From: Lentibacter sp.
GTDB lineage: Bacteria > Pseudomonadota > Alphaproteobacteria > Rhodobacterales > Rhodobacteraceae
Assembly (NCBI GenBank): GCA_016744435.1
Contig: JADGEJ010000019.1
Location: 1-64,000 of the forward strand
DNA: 64,000 nucleotides
Direction: 5' to 3'
This document shows positions 5,289 through 52,101 of the stretch, in pieces. The translations under genes were made by a program, and so were the position numbers. Positions within the stretch are counted from its first letter, which is position 1. Each line of letters begins with the position of its first letter. The notes under the pieces were generated by a model. That model ran no database searches. It was not told the DNA's origin and saw only the letters and a list, made by a program, of their open reading frames with translations.

Positions 5289-6978
5289 AAAGTTTCGCAT
5301 CCGCCGCACAGGCGAGATGGGAACAGGCCCCCGCTCGGCTGCACCCGAGAGTGCCGCCCCCGAAAGCACGGCGCCCGAAACGGCCGCGCCACAAGAGCCT
5401 GTGCGCCAGCGCCGTGCAGCGGCACCTGCCAGCGCGCCAGAAGCACAGCCCACCAAGCAGCCAGCAGCAGAACCCGCGCGCGAAGGGATGGTCTCCTCTG
5501 CCAATGAAACCAAGGCCGAAACCGACATTGACGCGATCCGCCGTGAGGGCCTAACAGGCCGCCAGCTTCGCCTCGCCCGGCGGATGGCGCAAAAGCACGG
5601 ACTAGCGCCTATCTCTGATTTTGATGCGGTGCGCCAGTTGCGTGTGAAGGGCATTGACCCGTTCCAGCGCGCCAACATGCTTGAGCTGGTTGTTCCCGGC
5701 AAAGACGCCAAAACGCCCGGCCTGCTTGATGAGCCAGACGTGGACAACATGCCAGGCCTCGGCAAAATCCAACTCCCACAGACGATGAAGGCAGACACTG
5801 CTCAGGTTCCCTCAACCGAGATATACACCGCCGACAGACGCGCTTCAGAGATCACCAAAATCCAGGAAGACATTGCCCGCCGTCGCCGCAAGCGGATGGT
5901 GCTGCTCATGGCGCGGCTTTCGGCCTTCGTGTTTTTGCCAACCATTTTGGCGGGCTGGTATTACTACGCCATCGCCACGCCGATGTACTCGACCAAGACA
6001 GAGTTTCTGATCCAATCAGCCGAGAGCGGCGGAGGCAGTGCCCTTGCTGGCCTGATCCCAGCGCAGCTTGCCAACAGTCAGGAGAGTATTGCTGTACAAT
6101 CCTATCTCACGTCAAAAGACGCTATGATCCGGCTGGATGACGAGCTTGGCTACAAGGCGCATTTCTCTGGTGAGAATGTCGATGCGATCCAGCGTTTGGA
6201 CACGGATTCAACCAATGAGGACGCCCATAAAGTCTACAAGAAAAACATCAAAATTGGCTATGATCCAACAGAAGGTGTTGTCCGGATGGAAGTGATCGCA
6301 GCTGACCCTGTCGTGGCGACTGACTTCTCTAAAGCTTTGATTTCTTACGCGGAAGAACGCGTCGATGCGCTCTCCCAAAAGATCCGTGATGACGCCATGG
6401 GAGATGCCCGGCGCAACCTTGAAACAGCCAAGCTTGAGCGCCGTCAGGCACAGGAAGCCCTGATCAGACTGCAAGAAGTCTACTCGGCTGACCCGACAGA
6501 GCAACTTGCCGCCTTGCGCACCCAGATCACCACCTATGATCAACAATTGCTGGAGAAAAAACTGGCGTTGCAGGCCTTGCTCGACAACTCGCGCCCCAAC
6601 CGCGCCAAAGTTGACGGCGCCCGCGGTGATGTACGCCGCCTTGAAAACGTGCTTGTCGAGTTGAACAACAGGATGACCGATGCGAGCACCTCAGACTTGT
6701 CGCTTGTGCAACAAAGCACCGAGATCCAACTCGCCCGCGCTGACCTGGCCTCATCAGACACTTTCTTGCAATCGGCCCTTCAAGGCGAAAAGCAGGCCGC
6801 GCTAGAAGCTGGCCGCCAAGTGCGTTACCTCTCGGTTCCGGTGCGCCCGATCGCCTCGGATGCGCCAAGTTATCCTCGCAAGTTTGAGAACACTGTTCTG
6901 GCATTCCTGATTTTCTCAGGCATCTACCTGATGGTTTCGCTAACGTCCTCAATCCTGCGCGAGCAAGTCTCAAACTAA
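5266..6978 (+). CDS. capsule polysaccharide export inner-membrane protein (KpsE/CtrB-like)
   Basis: Two terminal TM segments flanking a coiled-coil; Ala/Pro/Glu-rich N-terminus; overlaps KpsT-like gene by 23 nt. Confidence 0.8.
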   Translation: MTTKPKARKFRIRRTGEMGTGPRSAAPESAAPESTAPETAAPQEPVRQRRAAAPASAPEAQPTKQPAAEPAREGMVSSANETKAETDIDAIRREGLTGRQLRLARRMAQKHGLAPISDFDAVRQLRVKGIDPFQRANMLELVVPGKDAKTPGLLDEPDVDNMPGLGKIQLPQTMKADTAQVPSTEIYTADRRASEITKIQEDIARRRRKRMVLLMARLSAFVFLPTILAGWYYYAIATPMYSTKTEFLIQSAESGGGSALAGLIPAQLANSQESIAVQSYLTSKDAMIRLDDELGYKAHFSGENVDAIQRLDTDSTNEDAHKVYKKNIKIGYDPTEGVVRMEVIAADPVVATDFSKALISYAEERVDALSQKIRDDAMGDARRNLETAKLERRQAQEALIRLQEVYSADPTEQLAALRTQITTYDQQLLEKKLALQALLDNSRPNRAKVDGARGDVRRLENVLVELNNRMTDASTSDLSLVQQSTEIQLARADLASSDTFLQSALQGEKQAALEAGRQVRYLSVPVRPIASDAPSYPRKFENTVLAFLIFSGIYLMVSLTSSILREQVSN

Positions 6979-49794: not shown

Positions 49795-49963
49795 CTTTTT
49801 CTTTGTAAAAATACTCTGGGGGTCTGGGGGCTAGCCCCCAGTTCGGCCTGTGTCTGGGGGCTAGCCCCCAGTTCGGCCTGTGTCTGGGGGCTAGCCCCCA
49901 GTTCGACCTGTGTCTGGGGGCTAGCCCCCAGACGGTCGGATTTTACGCAGTAAATTCGAAACC
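49795..49963. repeat. dispersed intergenic element, copy 3, with internal 30-bp tandem array
   Basis: TCTGGGGGCTAGCCCCCAGTTCGGCCTGTG x3 plus a fourth partial copy at 49823-49932; CTTTTTCTTT lead; tail GGTCGGATTTTACGCAGTAAATTCGAAACC. Confidence 0.9.
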
Positions 49964-49966
49964 TCG

Positions 49967-50809
49967 TCACCTGCCATGGCTTCTGTCATACCCATTCAAT
50001 GCGGGGCCAACCCAACCGCTCAAAGCGCCCTCAGCTGGCGCAAAGGTCTCAACCAACAACGGGTAGCACGCCGCAGCGTCTGACGTATGCTCGCTTGAGC
50101 AGTCCCCGCCCGGGCAGGCCGACAGCGCCCCGAGCAAGTCAATCTCGGCAAAAAACTCTAAGTAATCTCCTGGCCGCACAGGTGAAGTCTTCATAAAATA
50201 CTGGCCCGTTTCTCGTGTGAAACCGGTGCACATAAAGACGTTAAGCACGTCATGCACATGCGGCTCGGCCTCGCTCTGAGGCACACCAAGTTCGTCTGCC
50301 AGAGCCCGCGTGAGGTTTGAGTGGCAGCAATGGTGATACTGCGCGCCGCTCAGCAAATTGCCAGTATAAGGGTCGCAACGTGTTCCAATCACGTCATGCA
50401 CAGAGCCGCCGAATTCGTCCATACCATACCAACCCAAGGTGTCGTCAACGATCGTCGCCATCGGCCGCAACGCCGGAAAGGATGACCACATTCGCTCCCC
50501 CGTCGTGATATGTGTGCCATGCAGCGCGCGGGTTTTGCCCGAGTAAAACCGCTCACTCAAGTCATGAGCGTTCCACAGGTTCAAATCGCCCACTTGCGCA
50601 CCCTCGACCGAGCTGATGCGAAAAAAATGCCCAGCAGGAACGCGAAAACAAGCCGCTTCGCGCGGTGCCACGATGACCTCGCTAGATTTCACCGCTCCCG
50701 CCCGCGCAGCCTTGTAAAGCGCCAACGGAACCTCCGGCAAGGTGTCGTTCGGGTAGCAAATAACCGGGCTTACAGCACGGCGCACTGCAGCATCTTTTGG
50801 CTCACTCAT
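49967..50809 (-). CDS. DUF1989/urea carboxylase-associated family protein
   Basis: VPAGHFFRISSVEGAQVGDLNLWNAHDLSERF; HHCCHSNLTRAL. Confidence 0.85.
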   Translation of the reverse strand: MSEPKDAAVRRAVSPVICYPNDTLPEVPLALYKAARAGAVKSSEVIVAPREAACFRVPAGHFFRISSVEGAQVGDLNLWNAHDLSERFYSGKTRALHGTHITTGERMWSSFPALRPMATIVDDTLGWYGMDEFGGSVHDVIGTRCDPYTGNLLSGAQYHHCCHSNLTRALADELGVPQSEAEPHVHDVLNVFMCTGFTRETGQYFMKTSPVRPGDYLEFFAEIDLLGALSACPGGDCSSEHTSDAAACYPLLVETFAPAEGALSGWVGPALNGYDRSHGR

Positions 50810-51578
50810 CTGTTATCCTTTCGCCAGGCCCATAGCCTGTCAGTGCCTCTTGCTGCGCGTCAAGTGCGCCCCAGACAAAAGCCTGATCTTTCGTCTCTAG
50901 TGGCGGGTACACTACCGGCTTGTAAAGCCCTTCGTTGACACGCCCGCGCCGTGCCTCCACGGGCTTAAACTGTTGAAACCGCGGCAAGTTGCACAACTGT
51001 GAAACGCACTCCACAAAGCCCTCGGGGTTTTCTGTCAGGTCCTCATGACGCACCATAACGCAGCTTTCAAACCGCTTCTGCAGCGACAAGAAACCAGCCG
51101 TTTTCGCGTTGCGCAGCGCAACAATGTTATCAAATCGAGCCCCTGTCAGAGGGTGCCTGTCATACTGCAACTCAGCTCGCCATCGGGCGTCGTCTCGCAG
51201 CACGCCGAAGTTTTGCTCGTCAACACGTGTCGCCCATTCGGCTCTGATGAACTCGGCGAAGGCCAGCTTGGCTCGTTCCGGCGCATGCCATGGCCGCTTG
51301 TGCATCGAGCGCAGCCAAGGTTCAGGTGCGCGAAACACCACCACAGCCAACGTACTCGCAGGCGCGGCCACCATCTGCGGAAAGCCGTGCTTCCAGCCAA
51401 AGCGAAAGCCGTGTGGCCCGATCCTGTCGCCAGAACTGCGCGCTAAGGCCGGAATGTTTTGAACCAGCAGGTTATGCGCCAGGTTGGTGCCTGTGTTGCG
51501 CTCTCCAAAGACAAAATGCTCAGTCGTTTCGGCCACGGCGCATTGCGCGTGAATGACTGGGAAATCACTATCCTGCAT
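50802..51578 (-). CDS. sulfotransferase-like P-loop protein
   Basis: FGERNTGTNLAHNLLV PAPS-loop-like motif; VVVFRAPEPWLRSM; overlaps DUF1989 gene by 8 nt. Confidence 0.55.
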   Translation of the reverse strand: MQDSDFPVIHAQCAVAETTEHFVFGERNTGTNLAHNLLVQNIPALARSSGDRIGPHGFRFGWKHGFPQMVAAPASTLAVVVFRAPEPWLRSMHKRPWHAPERAKLAFAEFIRAEWATRVDEQNFGVLRDDARWRAELQYDRHPLTGARFDNIVALRNAKTAGFLSLQKRFESCVMVRHEDLTENPEGFVECVSQLCNLPRFQQFKPVEARRGRVNEGLYKPVVYPPLETKDQAFVWGALDAQQEALTGYGPGERITDE

Positions 51579-51894
51579 GGCGCCCCGCTGCACGGCCCGA
51601 GAACAGGCACCCGCCCAAAAACGTGCCTTCAAGAGCGTTGTATCCATGGTAGCCAAACTGGGCTGAGCCGCGCCAGTCGCTCATCGCCAACTCGCGGCTG
51701 TCTTTGATGCCCATGCGCCGCTGCTCTGGGGTGTCGACCATGAACAGCCCGCCGAGGCTCCAGAAAGCCTGCCCGCCAAGCGACTGCGGACCTTCCATAT
51801 CAAGCATAAGAACGCGCTTGCCACGCAAGACAGCTTCATGCGCGGCGGCCATTCCGGCCAGCCCCGCGCCCACAACGATAATGTCTGATGTCAT
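51568..51894 (-). pseudogene. FAD-binding dehydrogenase, internally deleted remnant
   Basis: N-terminal Rossmann TSDIIVVGAGLAGMAAAHEAVLRGKRVLMLDMEGPQSLGGQAFWSLGGLFMVDTPEQRRMGIKDS joined directly to C-terminal-type HGYNALEGTFLGGCLFSGRAAGR; only about 108 aa. Confidence 0.75.
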
Positions 51895-51936
51895 CCAGCC
51901 GCCTCCCGGTTTTTTCAAACCTAGGAGGCAGCTGGA
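51894..51936 (-). promoter_or_regulatory. SD-sequestering hairpin
   Basis: Minus-strand RNA UCCAGCUGCCUCC-UA-GGUUU-GAAA-AAACC-G-GGAGGCGGCUGGA with GGAGG as the RBS of the 51894 ATG. Confidence 0.6.
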
Positions 51937-51948
51937 GGCTTGTCTAGA

Positions 51949-52101
51949 TCAAGCCGCGTCGCAGTATTGCTCATAGGCGTAATCCGGCGTGAGCTTGAAC
52001 TCTTCGTCAGAGTAATACTCATAGGCCTGATCGAGTGCTGCCAGTGCTTCTGCACGGGCTTGGTCTGTTTGAATGTCGGTGATGTTTGTCGCGTCTTGCA
52101 T
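51949..52101 (-). CDS. 50-aa small protein (not in supplied ORF list)
   Basis: MQDATNITDIQTDQARAEALAALDQAYEYYSDEEFKLTPDYAYEQYCDAA; AGGAG RBS 8 nt upstream. Confidence 0.65.
   Translation of the reverse strand: MQDATNITDIQTDQARAEALAALDQAYEYYSDEEFKLTPDYAYEQYCDAA

Follow-up and report, generated by a model that had tools for sequence, protein, structure and literature searches.

The question raised by this locus is whether a short open reading frame of 108 codons (51568..51894, minus strand, ATG start and TAG stop), located in the 64,000-nucleotide stretch of DNA analysed here (the window), which comes from a marine bacterium of the Lentibacter type, encodes a working small protein or is what is left of a much larger gene. 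A sequence-only reading had taken it for the gene of a large FAD dehydrogenase shortened by an in-frame internal deletion. Comparison with other genomes bears out the deletion, and judging from sequence the frame, though still open, very probably belongs to a recently dead gene.

Both ends of a single enzyme family are present in this frame, as indicated by matches to NF009472 (PRK12834) and to Pfam FAD_binding_2 (PF00890). The NF009472 match consists of two separate stretches (E 2.3e-47), the best of which covers model positions 4-82 of 550; the score of 161.7 bits lies below the curated cut-off of 476 bits, and an intact sister protein scores 877 bits across residues 2-545. Codons 1-80 (51655..51894, minus strand) encode a Rossmann beta-alpha-beta unit with the dinucleotide-binding motif GxGxxG (GAGLAG, codons 9-14) and the SLGGQAFWSLGG segment, and this region matches FAD_binding_2 at model positions 1-74 of 414. 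The remaining codons (51571..51654, minus strand) correspond to codons 519-546 of the full-length gene and encode its C-terminal GYHGYNALEGTFLGGCLFSGRAAGRHAG. In a profile built from 14 full-length relatives, positions 2-78 fall at 51655-51885 and positions 518-544 at 51574-51654. When compared with the intact gene of the sister genome G005, DNA identity is 88% for codons 1-80 and 87% for the C-terminal part, the latter at 100% protein identity. The segment proposed earlier as the C-terminus of the family does align there, although it spans 28 codons rather than about 24 residues; the estimate of about 80 residues for the N-terminal part agrees with the 80 codons found. Missing are 438 of 546 codons and, with them, every conserved position from codon 81 to codon 518 (the remaining FAD domain and the cap), where most of the conserved positions of the family lie. 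The product would thus be 108 residues long and lack a catalytic core, as had been anticipated.

The intact gene belongs to the flavoprotein superfamily that also includes the flavocytochrome c fumarate reductases, urocanate reductase, and the 3-ketosteroid dehydrogenases (PDB 1d4c, 6t85, and 4c3x). The intact sister protein aligns with urocanate reductase at both ends; however, the sequences of this group are distant, and the remnant holds just the first and last parts of the FAD domain. A literature search for the function of COG3573/PRK12834 found no dedicated paper.

Within the genus we compared eight genomes, that of the window (G000) and seven others. An intact 546-codon gene occupies the same place in two of these, G005 and G004, in the order sdhB, a small ORF, the FAD gene, a sulfotransferase-like gene, and a DUF1989 gene. 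About a dozen other Rhodobacteraceae, including Shimia, Sulfitobacter, Roseovarius, Actibacterium, and Pseudaestuariivita, also have the FAD gene between sdhB and DUF1989. Because the intact gene is syntenic in both relatives and this order recurs across the family, the full-length form is, on comparative grounds, ancestral and the form in the window is derived from it by loss. A fusion of unrelated genes is ruled out, as both ends belong to one family and to one syntenic gene. When the window's own genome was searched, also with the profile of 14 relatives, neither an intact copy nor a displaced middle part was found. A functional paralogue elsewhere in that genome was likewise considered and rejected, the sole other match being 37% over 45 residues in a frame of 1024 aa.

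The ancestor carried an intact FAD-binding dehydrogenase of the NF009472 kind, 546 codons long, between sdhB and the pair formed by the sulfotransferase-like and DUF1989 genes. Relative to the sister genes, codons 81-518 (438 codons, 1314 bp) are gone in the window lineage, and the two halves are joined in frame at 51655/51654 (junction 51654..51655, minus strand), inside the range of 51645-51660 where the join had been placed earlier. At the left breakpoint, G005 reads GCGCAATTT followed by GACCGT, and at the right breakpoint TTTGGCGGCGGC followed by GGATACCAC; the window reads CCCAGTTTGGCTACCATGG across the junction. Microhomology at the flanks, which the sequence-only reading had proposed to look for, amounts to 1 bp or 4-5 bp, depending on the path. 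In one scenario, 1314 bp (codons 81-518) would have been deleted in a single step with about 1 bp of homology. Alternatively, a 1305-bp deletion between TTTG copies at F80 and F515 may have come first, with 9 bp (three glycine codons) lost from the adjoining GGC run in a second step. The two-step path would use a 5-bp match, ATTTG, in G005 (TTTG in the window), and a match of at least 4 bp is expected in about 2.6% of random position pairs within the G005 gene. A deletion driven by a long repeat was rejected, since no such repeat exists and the joined ends share at most 1-5 bp. We would place the event on the branch of the window species, after its split from the sister G005.

Could the gene be whole in the genome and its ends merely misjoined during assembly or sequencing? 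The genome is a draft of 68 contigs, which leaves room for such an error, but the join lies inside a 75-kb contig, and its ends share at most a few base pairs where a collapsed assembly would call for a long repeat. Moreover, the middle part occurs nowhere else in a genome that is 99% complete, and both ends carry synonymous substitutions of the window lineage's own. Given the lack of a long repeat and these private differences at both ends, we regard an artefact as extremely improbable. Another question is whether the fragment has been kept as a mini-protein, the N-terminal beta-alpha-beta unit and the C-terminal helix having been fused and selected, perhaps as a peptide that binds nucleotides or has a regulatory role. 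The open frame, the start codon, the ribosome-binding site, and the promoter-like element are all intact, which counts against a dead gene, and the deletion joins two pieces of one discontinuous FAD-binding domain. The substitution pattern also still resembles that of a constrained protein, as a functional peptide would show. Using G004 as outgroup, we counted changes in the retained codons: about 15 synonymous and 2 non-synonymous ones for the window branch, as compared with 13 and 1 for the branch of G005, whose gene is intact (the ATG-to-GTG change of its start codon left out). In these counts, the changes at codon 93 were scored as synonymous after a manual recount, and Leu to Met at codon 30 was assigned to the window because only the window has Met. 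The other non-synonymous change, from a hydrophobic residue to Arg at codon 75, is not a clear sign of decay, since Arg also occurs there once among the full-length relatives. Had the whole window branch been unconstrained, 38-48 non-synonymous changes would be expected, and the unconstrained period is bounded at no more than 13-16% of that branch. Because the non-synonymous count is as low as that of an intact gene, the options are a recent deletion and a fragment under constraint.

A recent deletion accounts for the low count just as well and needs no new function, and for this reason we prefer it over constraint. In a survey of 397 genomes of the family, 96 gave matches at E <= 1e-15, and those listed for these 96 include no further open frame shorter than 400 aa; the short form is thus confined to a single genome. 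Most positions that are conserved in the family were in the removed part. AlphaFold gave the remnant a mean pLDDT of 46.8 (pTM 0.43, shallow alignment) and the intact sister protein 56.9 at about the same shallow depth. Residues 1-30 reached 59-72 in the remnant versus 84-94 in the intact protein, and the C-terminal helix 34-43 versus 66-83. Since shallow alignments limit both models, these values argue only mildly against the remnant folding as the corresponding part of the enzyme does. Nothing beyond the intact frame and the low protein-change count speaks positively for a mini-protein, which on balance we consider improbable. That a newborn functional small protein arose when a single deletion fused the two ends of the discontinuous domain, and was then kept by selection, seems to us quite improbable. 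Death of the gene, and a recent one, is favored because the cap and catalytic region are gone, the predicted fold is poor, and no other short version exists among the 96 genomes. The frame survived, with a chance of one in three, and still encodes a 108-aa peptide that combines the final helix with half of a Rossmann fold. The remaining FAD site, the cap, and the catalytic region are gone; for want of these parts the remnant most likely has no enzymatic activity.

The position of the junction also bears on the genes downstream. The sulfotransferase-like gene (50802..51578, minus strand, 258 aa) is intact, and its frame, which starts at 51578, overlaps the 3' end of the remnant by 11 nt (51568-51578). 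The stop of the remnant had been thought to overlap the next ATG; the stop itself lies off the ATG, but the two frames do overlap, as they do in the sisters. This ancestral overlap survives only under an in-frame join. Of the other two frames, one would produce a 363-aa fusion of the remnant with the sulfotransferase-like frame, and the remaining one would end about 50 nt short of the ATG of that gene. It is conceivable, and compatible with a dead gene, that frame and overlap were selected because an out-of-frame deletion would upset translation of the sulfotransferase-like gene. The putative relic in G007 described below likewise stays in frame and ends over the ATG of the following gene. However, an in-frame join has a prior chance of 1/3, two cases are too few, and an overlap of this kind is missing at the downstream gene of G001 and G006, so that we hold selection of the frame to be doubtful. 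The last gene of the cluster, encoding a DUF1989 protein (49967..50809, minus strand, 280 aa; Pfam PF09347, E 4.6e-50), is intact as well and was found in all eight genomes of the genus. Both downstream genes are probably still expressed, because the presumed driving element of the cluster, the ribosome-binding site, and the overlap remain. The sulfotransferase-like protein has a weak Pfam match to Sulfotransfer_3, below the cut-off, and no Pfam match above it. Every genome of the genus with the small ORF also encodes a close relative of this protein, and about 30 of 150 genomes of the family contain matches with 35-56% identity.

The FAD gene is missing from the locus in five other genomes of the genus. 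In a tree of five genes, G000 pairs with G005, and G004 adjoins them (100% support), and G001, G002, G003, G006, and G007 form the other part. G001 and G006 keep the small ORF and the sulfotransferase-like gene with no FAD gene in between, although a more distant copy is located elsewhere in G006 (N-terminal identity 74%). The interval from sdhB to DUF1989 is empty in G002 and G003. The locus of G007 holds 19 codons, IRHDGIIIGAGAGFWGRHV, with ATC in place of the start codon, 8 nt after GGAGG, and this stretch ends in TGA over the ATG of the next gene. Its resemblance to the N-terminus was matched by 11 of 3000 shuffles, and it is probably a second, deeper relic of the same FAD gene. The candidate lies at positions 5715-5771 of the extracted locus (L117; contig C47, minus strand) and has some 14 codons from the N-terminus and 4 from the C-terminus, all in one frame. 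The gene must have been lost no fewer than two times within the genus. One genus thus displays stages of loss, from the intact gene (G005 and G004) through the in-frame remnant in the window and a probable trace (G007) to clean absence (G001, G006, G002, and G003).

Pseudogenes formed by internal deletion are a general phenomenon in bacteria (for surveys, see PMC522871 and PMC9336565). Like them, the remnant is a truncated relic whose syntenic locus is occupied by an intact copy in sister genomes; unlike them, it keeps an open frame. Gene-calling software would probably report a small protein here instead of a pseudogene. The locus is a clean case of bacterial gene loss caught early, and it illustrates that a gene collapsed in frame can pass for an ordinary small protein. 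In itself, the remnant is an ordinary, well-preserved gene relic that opens no new mechanism.

Upstream of the remnant lies a putative promoter-like element, TAGACA-17-TAGGTT (51918..51946, minus strand), whose position is conserved in six genomes of the genus. The pattern T(A/G)GACA-17/18-TAGNNT occurs once in each of these six loci, which are the ones with the small ORF, and nowhere else (6 matches in 146 kb, both strands). It is located directly upstream of the FAD gene or its relic and, in loci lacking both, directly upstream of the sulfotransferase-like gene, which suggests that the transcription start of the cluster was spared in each loss. A predicted ribosome-binding site, GGGAGG (51902..51907, minus strand), lies 7 nt before the start of the remnant and is conserved with G005. 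The small ORF (51949..52101, minus strand; 50 codons, MQDATNITDIQTDQARAEALAALDQAYEYYSDEEFKLTPDYAYEQYCDAA) is situated between sdhB and the remnant; it is conserved in six of the eight genomes (G000, G005, G004, G006, G001, and G007) and has no match in Pfam.

A strong inverted repeat with arms of roughly 18 bp (about 51895-51936, minus strand) overlaps both the promoter-like element and the ribosome-binding site; it is also found in G005, and G001 has a shorter one in the corresponding position. It might be viewed as a structure that hides the ribosome-binding site, but because of its overlap with the promoter-like element, an mRNA from the putative promoter would hold one arm only. Between deoD and the DUF1989 gene, a tandem array (49822-49931) contains 3.7 copies of a 30-bp unit with 98% matches, and each unit contains the palindrome GGGGGCTAGCCCCC.
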